This document shows positions 407 through 34,495 of a stretch of DNA of 34,495 nt, piece by piece. Origin of the DNA: a virus. The stretch is taken from positions 1 to 34,495 of IMG/VR virus record IMGVR_UViG_3300030106_001686; one strand, written 5' to 3'. Positions within the stretch are counted from its first letter, which is position 1; each line of letters begins with the position of its first letter. The position numbers and the translations under genes were made by a program. The notes under the pieces were generated by a model. The model did no database searches, was not told the DNA's origin, and saw nothing but the letters and a program-made list of their open reading frames with translations.

Positions 407-625
407 ATGACAGATAAGGTTGTCCAGATAGAAAAGGTAGCGCAAAGGTTGCGTGATTTGTGTAACGACGAGGTTGAAAGGCTAGAGGATAGCTTGCCGA
501 ATGTTACAAATCTTTTTGAGCGTGATAGTATTTTAAAAGAAATTGATGCTTTGCACGAAATGGCAGACGAGGCAAACAGACAAGCGATTTTTATAGTAGA
601 AAAATATTATAAGGAGAAGGAATGA
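407..625 (+). CDS. hypothetical protein, 72 aa, helical
   Basis: A 72-residue product rich in Glu, Asp, Lys and Arg, probably all helical, without a domain I can name. Its ribosome binding leader is identical over 18 bases to that of the gene starting at 80. Its 3' end overlaps the methyltransferase start by four bases (ATGA at 622-625), so the two are probably translated together. Confidence 0.65.
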   Translation: MTDKVVQIEKVAQRLRDLCNDEVERLEDSLPNVTNLFERDSILKEIDALHEMADEANRQAIFIVEKYYKEKE

Positions 626-2352
626 AAGTATTAAGTTTATTTGATGGTATGAGTTGTGGCCGTATTGCCTTGGACCAACTAGGCATACCTGTAGAAAAGT
701 ATTATGCAAGTGAAATAGATAAGTACGCCATGCAAGTCAGTGCAGCAAACTATCCAGATATTGAGCAGGTTGGCGATATATGTGATTTAGACCCAAAAGA
801 TTACATGGATGTGGACTTAATGCTTGCAGGCAGTCCATGTCAGGGATTCAGTTTTGCAGGCAAGCAACTAGCTTTTGATGACCCAAGGAGTGCATTGTTT
901 TTTGAGTTCATACGCTTACTCAAAGCAATCAAGCCAAAGTATTTCTTATTAGAGAATGTCAGAATGAAGAAAGAGTTTTTACAGGTCATCTCTGAACAGG
1001 TGTCAGAGTGTTATCCTGAGATAACCTTTGGGATAGAACCTATCTTTATCAACAGTTCGCTTTTAAGCGCTCAATCTCGCCAACGCTACTATTGGACTAA
1101 CATACCTGGAATACAACAGCCAGAAGATAGAGGCATAGTGCTAAGAGATATATTGGAAGACAGCTTTGATAGTGAAAGAGACAAAGCACATTGCATAGAT
1201 GCAAATTATCACAAAGGTGCAAGTGTTGAACAATACAAGAAGAAACATAGAAGACAGTTAGTGAACAAACCAATTAAAGTAGGCATGAATGTAGAAGAAG
1301 TAAAAGTTAGAAAGCATGAGGTTGATATAGTTGAATTGCAACAATGTATTCTCAGCCATTATGCTAAGTGTGGTATGAGTAAAAAAGAAATAGCAAAGGA
1401 GCTGAACGATAAGTATTCTACAGTTGAGCATTACTTTAGAAAGCTAGGTAGTGATTTCTTTTCTATACCCTCAGAGGAGCATTGGCCTCAGTTAAAAGAA
1501 ATACTTGGTATCACAACAGATAAGTTTGATAAACAGATCATGGAGTTTGAATACAGAGACGGTGTGTTTGAAAGCACACAAAGAGTTTACAGCGATCAAG
1601 GTAAATCGCCTACGCTTACTGCATCAAACAAAGAGCAGATGATAGAAACAAAGCCTAAAAAAGCATACGACATACCCAGAGAGATACTCAAAGACAACGA
1701 AAGACAACGCAGAGTGTATGATCCGAGTGGTAAATCGCCCACGATACTAGGCAGAAGTGATAGTCCAAAGATTACTACACCCAAACAAGTAGGCATAGCG
1801 ACAGACATCAACGGACATGACATACTCAAAAGAGTCTATAGTCCAAATGGTAAGTCGCCTACAGTCAACACTTGTCAAGGTGGTAATCGTGAGCCTAAGG
1901 TGGCCGTTCAGTCTTACAGAGAAGTAAGAACAGATGAAGCTAAAGAAATGCGTAAGATGGTAAGGCAACAAACAGGTAAAGATCATACACCTTTTAGAGC
2001 AAAGAAATTAGAGCCAAGAAAAGACGGCAAGGTTGGTACAGTTACACCCAGTTTAAATAAAGACCATGAGATAAGCATTGAAAACTTACCTAATAAATCA
2101 CAAACGATTAAGTCGCAGTATTACAAGTCATCAAGAGCAAACTTTGAAAGGCAAGGCACATTTCATGCTACAGGTGTGCAGCAAGAAAACCTAACATGGC
2201 GTAAGCTAACACCCCTAGAATGCGAACGCTTGCAGACAGTCCCGGATAATTACACAGATCATGTCAGCAATACCCAAAGATATAAGATGCTTGGCAATGG
2301 TTGGACAGTTGAAGTCATCAAACATATCTTTCAAAACATGGAGATAGAATGA
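622..2352 (+). CDS. DNA cytosine-C5 methyltransferase
   Basis: Transfers a methyl group from S-adenosylmethionine to C5 of cytosine in DNA. In phages this usually protects against host restriction. Conserved motifs are in order: SAM-binding FDGMSCG at residues 7-13; catalytic GSPCQG with Cys73; ENV at 111-113; QSRQR at 151-155; motif IX RKLTPLECERLQ at 527-538; motif X GNGW at 558-561. The region between QSRQR and motif IX, where the target recognition domain sits, is very long (about 370 residues). It includes a helix-turn-helix-like segment (about 252-275) and three copies of R-V-Y-x-x-x-G-K-S-P-T starting at 321, 364 and 404. At 576 residues it is longer than many family members. No cognate endonuclease gene is visible nearby. 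The target sequence cannot be read from the protein. Confidence 0.95.
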   Translation: MKVLSLFDGMSCGRIALDQLGIPVEKYYASEIDKYAMQVSAANYPDIEQVGDICDLDPKDYMDVDLMLAGSPCQGFSFAGKQLAFDDPRSALFFEFIRLLKAIKPKYFLLENVRMKKEFLQVISEQVSECYPEITFGIEPIFINSSLLSAQSRQRYYWTNIPGIQQPEDRGIVLRDILEDSFDSERDKAHCIDANYHKGASVEQYKKKHRRQLVNKPIKVGMNVEEVKVRKHEVDIVELQQCILSHYAKCGMSKKEIAKELNDKYSTVEHYFRKLGSDFFSIPSEEHWPQLKEILGITTDKFDKQIMEFEYRDGVFESTQRVYSDQGKSPTLTASNKEQMIETKPKKAYDIPREILKDNERQRRVYDPSGKSPTILGRSDSPKITTPKQVGIATDINGHDILKRVYSPNGKSPTVNTCQGGNREPKVAVQSYREVRTDEAKEMRKMVRQQTGKDHTPFRAKKLEPRKDGKVGTVTPSLNKDHEISIENLPNKSQTIKSQYYKSSRANFERQGTFHATGVQQENLTWRKLTPLECERLQTVPDNYTDHVSNTQRYKMLGNGWTVEVIKHIFQNMEIE

Positions 2353-29491: not shown

Positions 29492-29871
29492 TGGCTAAGT
29501 CACCTGATGCGTTTGTTTACAACGCTACATTAGAACGGATTGTAGATGGAGACACATTTGATTGTTGTCTTGATCTTGGTTTTGATGTGAAGTTACATAA
29601 ACAGCGTGTCAGACTTGCAGGTATTGATACACCTGAAAGTAGAACTAGAGATTTAGCAGAAAAAAAATTAGGACTTGCTGCAAAAGAAAGGTTAAAAGAG
29701 CTTTGTATTGGTAATTTTAAGGTGAAATCATTAGGTAAAGGTAAATATGGTCGTATTTTAGGCATACCTTATACAGAAGACGGTAGAGATATATGCCAAG
29801 TGCTTATTAAAGAAGGTCATGCTGTAGAATATGACGGAGGCAAAAAGAAAAAAGTTTGGGGTGACTACTGA
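29491..29871 (+). CDS. staphylococcal-nuclease-like (thermonuclease) protein
   Basis: Cleaves DNA or RNA in a calcium-dependent way in the family. All key residues are present in family spacing: Asp21 (V-D-G-D-T), Arg41 (V-R-L-A-G), Asp46, Thr47 and Glu49 (I-D-T-P-E), and Arg88 (Y-G-R-I-L). The 126-residue product has no signal peptide, so the protein acts in the infected cell or in the virion. Host DNA degradation or nucleotide recycling is likely. It is tightly coupled on both sides. Confidence 0.88.
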   Translation: MAKSPDAFVYNATLERIVDGDTFDCCLDLGFDVKLHKQRVRLAGIDTPESRTRDLAEKKLGLAAKERLKELCIGNFKVKSLGKGKYGRILGIPYTEDGRDICQVLIKEGHAVEYDGGKKKKVWGDY

Positions 29872-30221
29872 TGGAGTCAGCCGTAACTTTGATTCAAGAG
29901 GTTGGATTTCCTATTGCAGCGGCATTAGGTCTTGGTTGGTTTATTTATAAATTAATTATGCGAATTGTCGATGGTATGGAAACTAAACTTGATACCGTTG
30001 ATGAAAAAGTAGAAAGCCAAATAGCTGCAATAGAAGAGAGACTTGGTACAAAACTTGATTCACAACACGGTATTTTGGTAGCATTGATAGATAGAGTGCG
30101 TAGTTTAGACAACGAAATAATACGCCAAGACACTTTAATAAAAACCATATTGGGTGTACCTAACTTAATTGATAGCGGAAAAATAGCAAAGGCAGGAAGA
30201 GATGATCAAAGAAAAGACTAA
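29871..30221 (+). CDS. membrane protein with coiled coil, holin-like, 116 aa
   Basis: One N-terminal helix (V-G-F-P-I-A-A-A-L-G-L-G-W-F-I-Y-K-L, about residues 11-28), then a long charged coiled coil (about 33-95) and a basic tail. This N-out, single-span plus coil design recurs in small phage holin-like or bacteriocin-like proteins of the BhlA/UviB kind. It directly precedes the csgF gene, overlapping by 20 bases. A role in holding the CsgG complex in place of a holin cannot be excluded. Confidence 0.6.
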   Translation: MESAVTLIQEVGFPIAAALGLGWFIYKLIMRIVDGMETKLDTVDEKVESQIAAIEERLGTKLDSQHGILVALIDRVRSLDNEIIRQDTLIKTILGVPNLIDSGKIAKAGRDDQRKD

Positions 30222-30714
30222 ACAAGAACAAATGGAAGAAGAAATTGTAAAAACTAAAATAGCTATATGGGCATTTTTTATAGGTGCTATTATGTTTTCA
30301 ACGATTCTAGGCATGAATTTAGCTGCTGATACCATAACTCATAAATTTAAATCTCCAAGTTTTAACGGCGTTGGAACGTCTAGTCATTATCTTACAATAG
30401 AAAATCAACAATATACTCGTAAGCTTACGATCAAAGAAGAGATAAAAGCATTACAAGATGAAATCAAGAGAGAAAAAGAAAACTCTACTCTTGCAAGATT
30501 TATGCGTAATCTTGAGTCTAGGGTTTACGCAGAATTATCAAGACAGTTAGTAAATAACTTATTCGGAGAAACACCGCAAAGCGAAGGTGTCATCACTTTA
30601 GAGGGAAATACTATTGAGTACACAAGTGATGGTGTAACTTTAACCCTTAAAATTACAGAGGCGGATGGGACAATTACCGAAATCGTCATACCTATTGGTA
30701 CTTTTACTTTCTAG
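30202..30714 (+). CDS. csgF: CsgF homologue, curli secretion pore partner
   Basis: In enteric bacteria CsgF inserts its N-terminal peptide into the CsgG barrel, makes a second narrow point and holds the curli nucleator at the surface. Here a signal peptide with a long charged N-region (residues 1-42) leads to D-T-I-T-H-K-F-K-S-P-S-F-N-G (43-56), which lines up with the E. coli mature start G-T-M-T-F-Q-F-R-N-P-N-F-G-G. The C-terminal part (about 118-170: L-V-N-N-L-F-G-E-T then T-L-T-L-K-I-T-E-A-D-G) also matches. The length is 170 versus about 138 residues in E. coli. The middle, about residues 73-105, is a helical insertion. The final 50 bases overlap csgG. Confidence 0.85.
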   Translation: MIKEKTKQEQMEEEIVKTKIAIWAFFIGAIMFSTILGMNLAADTITHKFKSPSFNGVGTSSHYLTIENQQYTRKLTIKEEIKALQDEIKREKENSTLARFMRNLESRVYAELSRQLVNNLFGETPQSEGVITLEGNTIEYTSDGVTLTLKITEADGTITEIVIPIGTFTF

Positions 30715-31570
30715 TTGTTCTATATTTGATCAGATAGAAGATACTTACGAACATAGGTTTCCACTACACAATGTTGTAAATATACAAGATTTACAATCTA
30801 AGGAACTAAAATATGTTCCTATACCTCAAGTTAGTCCTGTTGTAGCAGTGTATCCTACTGCTTTCACAGATCAGACAGGACAAAGAAAAAGCAATAGTGA
30901 GTTTGCTTTGTTTAGCACAGCTATAACACAACAACCAAATGCGTTACTTATAAGAGCTTTAAAGCATGCAGGAGACGGTAAGTTTTTTAGGGTTGTAGAA
31001 AGAGTGGGATTAGACAATCTTACCAAAGAAAGACAGCTTATAAGATCAGCAAGAGAACAATCAACCAATGAAGAAGAAAAAAAGAAAGCACTAAGACCTT
31101 TATTGTTTGCTGGTATTTTGATTGAGGGAGCTGTCATATCTTACGAAGTAAATTTAGAAAGTGGTGGAGCAGGTGCTAGGTATTTAGGCATAGGCAAAAG
31201 CGTTATGTATAGAGAGGACAACATAACGATAAGCATGCGTATGGTATCTGTTGCAACAGGGGAAGTATTGTTAGAGGTATTAAGTCAAAAAACAATATTT
31301 AGTTATGGCAAATCTGAGGACGTATTTAGGTTTGTTGAAGCTGAAAGCGAGCTAGTAGAAATAGAACTAGGCAACGCAAGAAATGAGTCATCAACCATAG
31401 CTTTGATGAAAGCTATAGAAGGAGGTGTGCTAGAAATCATTAACACTGGTTATGATCGTGGTTTCTGGGTTTTACAAAATGATAACCAAGGAGTAGAATT
31501 AAATAATGAAGAAATTAAAATTGATAAGCCTGATTGTGATGCTGACTGCGTTGACGACATACGCGGCTGA
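30665..31570 (+). CDS. csgG: CsgG homologue, outer-membrane curli secretion lipoprotein
   Basis: Forms the nonameric, 36-strand outer-membrane pore that exports curli subunits. A lipoprotein signal peptide ends in L-S-S-C with Cys18. Clear CsgG motifs follow: D-Q-T-G-Q at 69-73; F-S-T-A at 83-86; G-L-D-N-L-T-K-E-R near 115-123; the transmembrane hairpin S-G-G-A-G-A-R-Y-L-G-I-G at 166-177; T-G-E-V-L near 198; D-R-G-F-W at 264-268. At 301 residues it is some 20 longer than E. coli CsgG, largely from a C-terminal extension with two cysteines (D-C-D-A-D-C). The pore-lining loop differs: F is kept before STA, but E. coli Asn55 and Tyr51 are not at the same places. Confidence 0.93.
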   Translation: MGQLPKSSYLLVLLLSSCSIFDQIEDTYEHRFPLHNVVNIQDLQSKELKYVPIPQVSPVVAVYPTAFTDQTGQRKSNSEFALFSTAITQQPNALLIRALKHAGDGKFFRVVERVGLDNLTKERQLIRSAREQSTNEEEKKKALRPLLFAGILIEGAVISYEVNLESGGAGARYLGIGKSVMYREDNITISMRMVSVATGEVLLEVLSQKTIFSYGKSEDVFRFVEAESELVEIELGNARNESSTIALMKAIEGGVLEIINTGYDRGFWVLQNDNQGVELNNEEIKIDKPDCDADCVDDIRG

Positions 31571-32237
31571 TAACGAAATATATGTAGATCAATCTGGTAC
31601 TGGAGCCAATATAGACCTAGAACAACTAGGTATTTCTAATATCATAGGTGGGTTAAATAGCTCTGCAGGTAATTTAACCCCCTTTGATTTAGATGGTAAC
31701 AGTATGACACTTGACATAAATATGATAGGTGCAACTAACAAGTTTCTTGGTGATATATTTGCTGATAACTTTACTGGCTTTTACGAGTTTGACGGTGGTA
31801 CTAATACCTTTACCATACAAGTTGATCCCACAGATACCTATGGTGCTGACGGATCTAATCAATATGTAGATGTCACAGGTAGTGGTAATACTTTTACTTT
31901 AAACCAAGGAACTACAGCATTAGCAGCTTCGCTTGATTTAGATTGGATTATAAACGGATCTAATAACACAGTTACATCAAATATTAATATAGACGGTGCT
32001 ACTAATTATATGGATATAGATGGTTCTGATAATACAGTTACTTATACAGGTACAGGAGTTACAGCTTCAGCAGGTGGATATTTCTATCTTGATCACACAG
32101 GTGGCTCGAGAACTTTTAATATTTCACAACTAAGCACCCAAGATAATGACTGGCTTAAAATTATATCCGTTTCTGGCACTGCTGCTTCTACCGTTTGTGT
32201 TGTTCAAAACGACCAAGGTACAAGCACAAGCTGTTGA
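31506..32237 (+). CDS. secreted curlin-like protein, putative curli subunit
   Basis: A Sec signal peptide (1-20 or so, ending T-T-Y-A) leads to E-I-Y-V-D-Q-S-G-T-G-A-N (24-35) and I-D-L-E-Q-L-G-I-S-N (36-45), which fits the curlin pattern of Q-x-G-x-x-N repeats. The remaining 190 residues have further strand-turn units (G-S-N-N-T-V-T, G-S-D-N-T-V-T, G-S-G-N-T-F-T) but fewer Q-x-G steps, so a divergent beta-solenoid is likely. Two cysteines near the end (231 and 243) are not seen in CsgA. The 5' end overlaps csgG by 65 bases. Secretion by CsgG is inference from the operon. Confidence 0.68.
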   Translation: MKKLKLISLIVMLTALTTYAADNEIYVDQSGTGANIDLEQLGISNIIGGLNSSAGNLTPFDLDGNSMTLDINMIGATNKFLGDIFADNFTGFYEFDGGTNTFTIQVDPTDTYGADGSNQYVDVTGSGNTFTLNQGTTALAASLDLDWIINGSNNTVTSNINIDGATNYMDIDGSDNTVTYTGTGVTASAGGYFYLDHTGGSRTFNISQLSTQDNDWLKIISVSGTAASTVCVVQNDQGTSTSC

Positions 32238-33264
32238 TATTGGAGATATATCTGAATTAAACGGTACGGCTCAAATTGTCAGAGACAAGCCTTATGATGC
32301 AGATTTAAAGTTTGCTATTCAAAGTAATGATGAGGCCATAACCAAAGATGGCCGTATGGCTATTACTTTTCTTGATGATTCTACTGTAAAACTTACAGAA
32401 CATAGTCAGCTACTTATTGACGAGTACATATATGATCCAGACCCAAGTAAAGCAAAGATGGCTCTTACCTTTGGACTTGGTACAGCTAGGTTTATTACAG
32501 GCAATCTAAACCGTATAGATAAACAAAACATAACTCTTAAAACACCTACAGCTAACATAGCAATACGTGGGACTGATTTTACGGCTACAGTTGATGAACT
32601 AGGGCGTAGCCTTATAATTTTGCTACCAGACGCTCTAGGGCTCTCTAGTGGCGAAATAGAGGTAGTTACTGCTATGGGCACCGTTATACTAAACAAACCC
32701 TACGAAGCCACTACAGTGAGCGTATTTGAGTCTGCTCCAACCAAACCTGTAATTTTAGACTTAACACTTGATGTAATAGATAACATGCTTATTGTTACAC
32801 CACCCAAAGAAGAAGTGTTAGTAGAAGAAGAAACCACTACTACGCAAGCAGATAGTGTATTAGATTTTAATGATCTTGATATAGATTATCTTGCAGAAGA
32901 TTATTTAAAAGAAGATAGTCTTGAGTTTACAGAATTAGATATAAACTATCTTGATGTAAATTATCTTGAAGACTTGCTTAATGTATTAGATGCCTTGGCG
33001 ATAGACGAAGATGAAGATGTGTTAGCACAAGCAACAAGCACACAGATAGCAGGTACTCTGTTAGGCAAAGATCCAGACACACAGATAACAGCTTTAATTA
33101 CAGGAAATGTAGTAAGTTTGCGAAGAGAGGTTAATGAAAGTGTTAGAGTTGATCTAAACGGTAGTAATGCCTATACAGTTATTTTGATTCAAGATGGTGT
33201 ATCTAATATAATAAAAATCAACGGAGGGAGCGACAGTGTTATCACTATCACTCAAAGTGATTAA
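32146..33264 (+). CDS. secreted FecR-domain protein with curlin-like C-terminus
   Basis: A signal peptide (1-29, ending V-Q-A-Q-A) is followed by a FecR-like domain (about 30-200) with F-L-D-D-S-T-V-K-L, I-D-E-Y-I-Y-D and the family hallmark I-R-G-T-D-F at 140-145. No transmembrane segment follows, unlike iron-signal FecR. An acidic linker (about 222-295) carries L-D-I-x-Y-L repeats, then residues 340-372 show V-I-L-I-Q-D-G-V-S-N and V-I-T-I-T-Q-S-D, like a curlin repeat. The start overlaps the curlin-like gene by 92 bases, and its ribosome site is weak, so translation is probably coupled. A role in anchoring or nucleating the surface polymer is inferred. Confidence 0.78.
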   Translation: MTGLKLYPFLALLLLPFVLFKTTKVQAQAVDIGDISELNGTAQIVRDKPYDADLKFAIQSNDEAITKDGRMAITFLDDSTVKLTEHSQLLIDEYIYDPDPSKAKMALTFGLGTARFITGNLNRIDKQNITLKTPTANIAIRGTDFTATVDELGRSLIILLPDALGLSSGEIEVVTAMGTVILNKPYEATTVSVFESAPTKPVILDLTLDVIDNMLIVTPPKEEVLVEEETTTTQADSVLDFNDLDIDYLAEDYLKEDSLEFTELDINYLDVNYLEDLLNVLDALAIDEDEDVLAQATSTQIAGTLLGKDPDTQITALITGNVVSLRREVNESVRVDLNGSNAYTVILIQDGVSNIIKINGGSDSVITITQSD

Positions 33265-34495
33265 ATGAAAAGACTATTATTACCAATACTTATAATACTA
33301 GCTTTACCATTATTGTTTCAAAGCACTCCTACAGAAATATTAAAACTAAAAACTTTTGATAAGTTTATAGAAACACCAGAGCCATCAGGTAACTTTGTCA
33401 TACTTAACATAACCGAAGAAGATGTAGAGCGTGAGGGAGGTTGGCCTTTACCCAGACAAAGACTTGCTGAAATACAATTAAACATAATAGGTAAAGGTGC
33501 CTTAGGTGTAGGTTGGGTTATAAGTTTTCCACAAGCAGATAGAATGGGTGGTGATGAAGATTTTGCTAGATCATTAGGATACGCTCCCTCTGTTATAGCC
33601 ATGTTTGAAGATGGTAAAGGCGATTATCCTACATCACCTGGAACTGTTGTACTTGGTATTGATAATGGTGGTATACTTTCTACAGGAGTAAAGTCAAACC
33701 TACCTCTACTATCCAATCATGTTCTACAAGGTTTGGCTATTGCTCCTACTGATATAGATTTATTAGTTCGTAAAATACCTCTTTTAGTTAAAACACCAAA
33801 TAACGAATGGATACCTAGTTTTGGTACACAAATATATAAATCTTTGTTTGATGTAAAAACTTATATTATAAAAACTAATGATAATGGTATAGAAGAAATA
33901 TCAATAAGAGGAATACCACCGATTAAAACAGATAGTCTTGGTCGTAAGTGGATTAGTTGGGTTAACACACCACAAACAGACTTACAAGAAATGAATGTCA
34001 ATGGTAAGTTTGTGTTTGTAGGCGTTACTGCTAACGGTGTTATGCCACAAGTAGCCACGCCTGTTGGACTTTTAGAGCCACATAAAATACAAACTGCACT
34101 TGCTGAATCTATACTAATAGAGAATTCACCATACATACCTGATTGGTCATTAGCAGCAGAGCTTTTAATTTTAATAATATTTGTTAGTTTGGTTTGGTTT
34201 GTATTGCATTACTTTGGCATTACATGGGGAGTATCTATCGCTACTGTATTCATGTTAGTTACAGGTTTGGGTGGTGTCTACATGATTAAACAAGGTTTGT
34301 TAGTAGATGTATCTTGGACTTTAGTATCTGAATTTATAACAGGATCAATAGCTTTTTACTTAAGATTCAGACAACAATACAAACTAAGACAGCAGATCAA
34401 GAAACAGTTTGAACATTACCTTGATCCACGCCAAGTAAAGAAACTACAAGACGATCCTAGTTCTCTAGTGTTAGGTGGTGAAAAAAGATATTGTA
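33265..34495 (+). CDS. CHASE2 receptor, probable class III adenylate cyclase (3' truncated by window)
   Basis: The first 410 residues are visible. An N-terminal helix (about 4-18) leads into a CHASE2 sensor domain, with its typical G-G-W-P-L-P-R-Q-R at residues 58-66. Three membrane helices follow (about 294-315, 318-341, 345-365), then a cytoplasmic linker Q-I-K-K-Q-F-E-H-Y-L-D-P-R and L-V-L-G-G-E-K-R-Y. This linker is what leads into class III cyclase catalytic domains. The catalytic part lies beyond the window, so cyclase function is inferred from the linker. The gene starts directly after the FecR stop, so sensor and secretion genes share an mRNA. Confidence 0.82.
   Translation, partial: MKRLLLPILIILALPLLFQSTPTEILKLKTFDKFIETPEPSGNFVILNITEEDVEREGGWPLPRQRLAEIQLNIIGKGALGVGWVISFPQADRMGGDEDFARSLGYAPSVIAMFEDGKGDYPTSPGTVVLGIDNGGILSTGVKSNLPLLSNHVLQGLAIAPTDIDLLVRKIPLLVKTPNNEWIPSFGTQIYKSLFDVKTYIIKTNDNGIEEISIRGIPPIKTDSLGRKWISWVNTPQTDLQEMNVNGKFVFVGVTANGVMPQVATPVGLLEPHKIQTALAESILIENSPYIPDWSLAAELLILIIFVSLVWFVLHYFGITWGVSIATVFMLVTGLGGVYMIKQGLLVDVSWTLVSEFITGSIAFYLRFRQQYKLRQQIKKQFEHYLDPRQVKKLQDDPSSLVLGGEKRYC

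Follow-up and report, generated by a model that had tools for sequence, protein, structure and literature searches.

A candidate CHASE2 receptor adenylate cyclase at the end of the curli module of a SAR11-type podophage

The curli module

We analysed a window of 34,495 nucleotides, which comprises bases 1-34495 of a 56,596-base IMG/VR phage record. Genes of a curli-type module lie at its end, all on the plus strand. The curli assembly gene csgF (30202..30714; PF10614, E 3.8e-14) is followed by csgG (30665..31570; PF03783, E 6.8e-45), which encodes the curli outer-membrane channel and whose product has a lipobox-like start, LLSSC, seen in the sequence. The next gene (31506..32237) encodes a curlin-like secreted repeat protein, a candidate fibre subunit, with a signal-peptide-like start and GGxNxFxI-type repeats recognised by eye. 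It has no match in Pfam or PHROG. It occupies the place of gp016 of phage HTVC008M, annotated as CsgB, the similarity being weak. Then comes a gene for a FecR-domain protein (32146..33264; PF04773, E 2.6e-9; phrog_37870), also with a signal-peptide-like start and a candidate periplasmic partner of the last product, a CHASE2 receptor adenylate cyclase (33265..34495). The genes are tightly packed, with overlaps of 50 nt between csgF and csgG, 65 nt between csgG and the curlin-like gene, and 92 nt between the latter and fecR. The sequence-only reading had placed the receptor beside FecR and curlin-like proteins, and the Pfam matches of FecR, CsgF and CsgG bear this out.

Upstream of csgF there is a gene for a 116-aa protein (29871..30221, plus strand), which by eye has an N-terminal hydrophobic segment followed by a coiled-coil-like region. 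It belongs to phrog_18771, a family of unknown function, and has no Pfam family above the cut-off and no kinase domain at E<=0.1. Its homologues are found 5' of csgF in many loci, HTVC008M and the phage Melnitz included, and some relatives have two copies. From this position and the duplicate copies we would guess that it is probably the gene termed histidine kinase in the available passages of PMC9599517.

Gene order was counted on distinct sequences with duplicates removed. The order csgF, csgG, fecR, cyclase is the same in all 40 loci having 5 kb upstream, and fecR is directly 5' of the cyclase gene in 69 of 74. In the other five (L028, L044, L063, L077, L109) approximately 450-900 bases separate the two genes, leaving room for a further gene; this spacer recalls the second curlin gene at the same place in HTVC008M.

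The FecR domain was found in all 34 relatives considered. Almost all of the listed FecR proteins share a similar C-terminal stretch, ...IQDGVSN..KINGG....ITQ, which is curlin-like by eye. The possibility that this C-terminus is a curlin repeat was rejected: none of the 34 proteins reaches E<=1 against the curlin repeat of Pfam, and the structure model of the FecR-domain protein (pLDDT 46) is too poor for use.

The cyclase gene

The cyclase gene starts with the ATG codon at 33265, immediately after the fecR stop codon, and its frame is open for 410 codons, up to the last full codon of the window (33265-34494). The window stops at 34495, where a run of 10 Ns in the record (34496-34505) cuts the gene. 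The part before the gap encodes an N-terminal anchor, a CHASE2 domain predicted to be periplasmic, C-terminal membrane helices, and a linker. The CHASE2 sensor, initially proposed from motifs, is matched by Pfam (PF05226, E 4.2e-25; score 89.2 bits, cut-off 26.3). The motif WPLPR occupies residues 60-64. It is not strict in the family: of 87 distinct proteins, 44 have W at position 60 and 42 have Y. The elements read as a linker preceding a class III cyclase were located as FEHYLDP at residues 382-388 and LGGEKR at 403-408.

Beyond the gap, a frame starting from GAT (DVRGFT...) encodes a class III cyclase domain that is complete from there on and ends at a stop codon (record 34506-35021; L002:4507-5022; Guanylate_cyc, Pfam E 3.9e-17). 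Thus the catalytic half predicted to lie past 34495 does lie there, and a kinase, a GGDEF domain or an early stop, any of which would have contradicted the prediction, are all absent. The cyclase motifs are present as well: the first Asp in DVRGFT, the second Asp in DKYIGD, the adenine-selecting Lys/Asp pair, and the Asn/Arg pair. We take these residues to be the metal-binding D416 and D460, the adenine-selecting K456 and D520, and the transition-state N529 and R533. The two halves match one PHROG consecutively (phrog_35576, positions 16-428 and then 436-619).

An intact close copy of the gene, L007, encodes a protein of 586 aa, 96% identical to the record in the CHASE2 half, and was used for modelling (pLDDT 71, pTM 0.49). 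In the predicted structure an anchor is followed by an extracytoplasmic part of mixed alpha/beta structure, by long membrane helices and by the cyclase domain. Helices 295-342 and 350-382, after the putative periplasmic part, are compatible with the three-helix pattern of CHASE2 receptors. Together with helix 5-34 they would fit the layout of that family, in which an N-terminal membrane helix and an extracytoplasmic CHASE2 precede three further membrane helices and a cytoplasmic output; the model is weak (low pLDDT) over residues 113-184. The modelled cyclase domain resembles CyaB of Pseudomonas aeruginosa (3r5g, TM 0.83 by target); the best matches among solved structures include P. aeruginosa CyaB, Cya2 and Spirulina CyaC, and the same holds by sequence.

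Phage lineage, likely host and cAMP receptors

The record contains genes for TerL, portal, capsid and primase, and thus comes from an ordinary tailed phage. Its TerL is 62% identical to that of 023Pt_psg01, 61% to that of Phage DSL-LC04 and 59% to those of HTVC027P and HTVC023P, the next match being at 42%. By sequence, the record is a SAR11-type (HTVC023P-type) podophage. SAR11 are the commonest bacteria of the ocean. A cytosine-5 methylase gene is located near the start of the record (window 622-2352); there are also an N6/N4 methylase gene and, after it, a second cytosine-5 methylase gene running off the record end (L003 9784-11596).

In bacteria, the usual readers of cAMP are proteins that contain the cNMP-binding domain PF00027. 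This domain was found in none of ten phage records, namely the one considered here, seven IMG/VR relatives (possibly incomplete), HTVC008M and Melnitz. In the SAR11-like family of likely hosts, to which the Pelagibacter-titled genome with contig L137 belongs, it is present in 4 of 99 genomes, while the controls, sigma-70 region 4 and RecA, are found in 98 and 90 of the same genomes. HTH_Crp_2 scores over the cut-off in one of the 99, and in 20 at E<=0.001. Most of these genomes have two sigma factors; two have been reported for SAR11 (PMC13198564, in the part available). Class III cyclases were observed in three of the 99 genomes, over the cut-off in two. The same two genomes contain CsgG, and in both cases this is the phage curli-cyclase module on a phage-type contig. 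G075 has a sub-cut-off cyclase match.

Thus the classical cAMP-CRP route seems to be missing from the phage records and from most likely-host genomes, as far as domain searches can tell. Since the likely hosts mostly do without a cAMP-receptor domain, the usual consequence of raised cAMP cannot be assumed. The earlier discussion of the module, in the available passages of PMC9599517, was modelled on the enterobacterial route from cAMP to CsgD. A likely host family that mostly lacks the receptor for this route raises the question of what reads phage-made cAMP in SAR11. One tentative answer, which we hold to be possible but not probable, is that with the cyclase the phages bring an entire, selected source of a second messenger into SAR11-type cells that had lost cAMP signalling and have no class III cyclase or CRP-type receptor of their own, and that the cAMP would be read by a phage or host receptor of an unrecognised kind.

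Another is that the true host lies outside SAR11 and has a CRP-type receptor, so that the cyclase would raise cAMP for the host CRP. Indeed, the Melnitz phages, which also carry the module, have Methylophilales as hosts, and PF00027 is common across the class of G001 (74 of 96 genomes). However, the closest TerL proteins include those of HTVC027P and HTVC023P, both isolated as Pelagibacter phages, and HTVC008M, whose listed host is Pelagibacter HTCC1062, shares the module and retains the catalytic residues of the cyclase. We therefore consider a host outside SAR11 unlikely. As HTVC008M and its host HTCC1062 are both cultured, the receptor puzzle can be tested. Relatives of the module abound in the viral collection used, and it has been reported as widespread in the sea (PMC9599517).

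Possible mode of action

The gene is quite likely to encode an inner-membrane receptor adenylate cyclase that closes the curli/type VIII secretion module of a SAR11-type podophage and would produce cAMP late in infection in response to the state of the envelope. The CHASE2 domain would reside in the periplasm and sense the envelope there. By analogy with CyaD1 of Sinorhizobium meliloti, whose CHASE2-deleted form makes cAMP constitutively (PMC5498481, in the passages available), it may keep the cyclase inactive, and an event in the periplasm would lift this inhibition. This event could be curli export by the module itself or a change of the envelope late in infection. The signal would pass through the membrane helices and switch the cyclase dimer, which would then convert ATP to cAMP.

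The signal would most likely reach CHASE2 via the FecR-domain protein encoded just upstream. This protein is favoured as the periplasmic partner since fecR genes recur beside CHASE2 sensors: in S. meliloti, in Burkholderia, and at a distance of at most two genes in alphaproteobacterial CHASE2-cyclase loci, although in only 5 of the 19 examined (19 of 20 bacterial loci, L198 being left out). On the other hand, the FecR-domain gene SMc02177 near cyaD1 has been reported as dispensable for signal perception (same passages of PMC5498481), which weakens the case for FecR as the signal carrier.

The position of the module suggests a different role. The cyclase gene is followed by genes for a 71-aa protein, a 159-aa protein, a lysozyme and a virion protein, and in 56 of 59 distinct loci a lysozyme gene lies downstream at a distance of at most 3.5 kb. 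The module could then be a lysis-timing device, in which CsgG and CsgF form an outer-membrane pore while the cyclase and FecR report the envelope state, and no fibre is built. A pore or pinholin role in lysis was indeed proposed for Melnitz, where no clumping was seen (PMC9004378). However, the curlin-like secreted protein is retained and would be superfluous for a pore alone, the modules of HTVC008M and Melnitz adjoin tail and baseplate genes with no lysozyme, and the available text of PMC9004378 mentions neither cyclase nor FecR. Lysis timing thus appears rather improbable, and an envelope-sensing cyclase of a curli module is preferred.

Relatives, active site and selection

The sequence-only reading knew of few phage cyclases of this sort. 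Such cyclases are not rare: the viral collection, scanned once per half, yielded at least 599 and at least 597 confirmed relatives, and the module had already been published (PMC9599517). The best 80 relatives of each scan were kept. There were 130 loci with both halves, including HTVC008M and Melnitz, and the 111 complete ones gave 87 distinct proteins. CHASE2 and Guanylate_cyc were both found by Pfam in 44 of 44 relatives.

The residues D416, K456, D460 and R533 are kept in all 87 distinct proteins, whereas D520 is conserved in 85 of them and N529 is conserved in 86. Two proteins deviate: that of Melnitz, where the equivalents of both Asp520 and Asn529 are Ser, and that of L078, which has no D520 (the affected genes are at 7917-9965 in L005, that is Melnitz, and at 3057-4829 in L078). 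With these residues gone from Melnitz, some phage copies may make no cAMP. Melnitz has a non-SAR11 host, and the activity of its cyclase was possibly lost after a change of host.

Over the whole gene the median dN/dS amounts to 0.175, with 0.174 in the CHASE2 domain and 0.134 in the cyclase part; these values are from pairs with dS of 0.1-1.2, HTVC008M and Melnitz being excluded, and the pairs are not independent. At the level of codon comparison this shows purifying selection on the cyclase gene. One could suppose that the cyclase has decayed or survives as a relic with a structural role alone, given the loss of two catalytic residues in Melnitz and one in L078 and a frame difference between the halves in 2 of the 130 loci (L067 and L100). 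However, each catalytic residue is retained in 85-87 of the 87 proteins and the dN/dS of the cyclase part is about 0.13, which makes a relic very improbable.

The record itself shows a frame difference if the gap is taken as exactly 10 bases, as the CHASE2 and cyclase halves are then out of frame. The other 128 of the 130 loci have one continuous frame. Since the relatives are in frame, the run of Ns is most simply a gap of indefinite length, with no mutation. The Ns fall precisely at the junction of the halves, but the suggestion that a misassembly there fused two unrelated genes, one for CHASE2 and one for a cyclase, is refuted by relatives that read through and are nearly identical on both sides (L006/L086 98-99%, L007/L087 96-98%), as well as by the single PHROG covering both halves.

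Sequence analysis thus shows a protein with an anchor, CHASE2, membrane helices, a linker and a complete class III active site, encoded in a module of fixed order followed by lysis genes. The gene at 33265 of this HTVC023P-type phage is probably a receptor adenylate cyclase under selection, with cAMP synthesis as the predicted activity.

Cellular homologues and stray contigs

A scan of genome contigs produced three loci, all carrying the phage-type module, and therefore no cellular donor of the cyclase came from that scan. The cyclase profile detects many alphaproteobacterial CHASE2-cyclases, and 116 of 190 genomes match it in some part. No csgF or csgG match was found within reach of any of the 20 examined bacterial CHASE2-cyclase loci. 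G019 was considered as a SAR11-like carrier of the cyclase and rejected, as its 683-aa protein (L207/L208, G019:C1:324108-325364) matches CHASE2 and the membrane part only and has no cyclase part.

Contigs with phage curli, fecR and cyclase genes (L137, L138, which is partial, L139 and L204) occur in G056 and in metagenome-assembled bacterial genomes whose titles give Pelagibacter, Neomarinimicrobiota or Flavobacteriaceae. All four are likely to be phage contigs binned with bacteria; L137, titled Candidatus Pelagibacter MED605, is of the phage type. Some records have doubtful labels. OR851715.1 (H43) bears the name of a Salmonella phage; it is 1.5 kb long, has a CsgG match at 44% and is probably a stray bacterial or other fragment. 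CAKLQH020000011.1 (H13) and CAKLQF020000009.1 (H14), both large contigs labelled as Acinetobacter phage, contain a class III cyclase annotated as cyaA and may be chromosomal DNA.

Comparison with known systems

The gene set is not new, as the module with an adenylate cyclase ("AC") is in print and the HTVC008M cyclase has been annotated. What is new is the counts of receptor domains in the likely host family. Neither the CHASE2 reading nor the question of the missing receptor was found in the open-access literature searched, and among the open-access PMC papers listed that name both CHASE2 and phages, none had a phage receptor as its subject, judged by title and the start of the abstract. Wittmers et al. 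2022 (PMC9599517, as far as its text was available) described the module, frequently with the AC, from myoviruses as well as from nine HTVC023P-type genomes; the words CHASE2 and CRP do not occur in that text. The lineage is the same as here, and so is the order CsgF, CsgG, FecR, AC, with the curlin-like protein as the candidate counterpart of the curli repeat protein between CsgG and FecR. However, a histidine kinase is listed there before csgF, to which the 116-aa gene of our record lends no support. The curli part and "sibling capture" were reported by Zaragoza-Solas et al. 2020 (PMC7029224, available passages).

Two cultured phages have the same architecture. Protein gp019 of HTVC008M (NC_020484.1), "adenylate/guanylyl cyclase" in GenBank, has the same CHASE2 and Guanylate_cyc domains, module order and catalytic residues; however, HTVC008M is a T4-like myovirus, its cyclase is 35% identical to that of L007, and an extra curlin/PA14 gene precedes the cyclase gene. 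Protein gp104 of the Methylophilales phage Melnitz (MZ577097.1) shares both the architecture and the module with our record and differs in the Ser replacements in the active site and in the host, OM43.

Among bacteria, CyaD1 of S. meliloti is likewise a class III cyclase under the control of CHASE2, and a FecR-domain gene lies close to its own. Unlike the phage gene, cyaD1 is chromosomal and adjoins the gene for the cAMP receptor Clr, and no curli genes are mentioned in the passages available (PMC5498481). In the BiofilmReg operon of Burkholderia a FecR-domain gene also adjoins a gene for a CHASE2 membrane sensor, and the operon is linked to biofilms, whereas its output, according to the accessible part of PMC5192318, is a histidine kinase with a response regulator instead of a cyclase.
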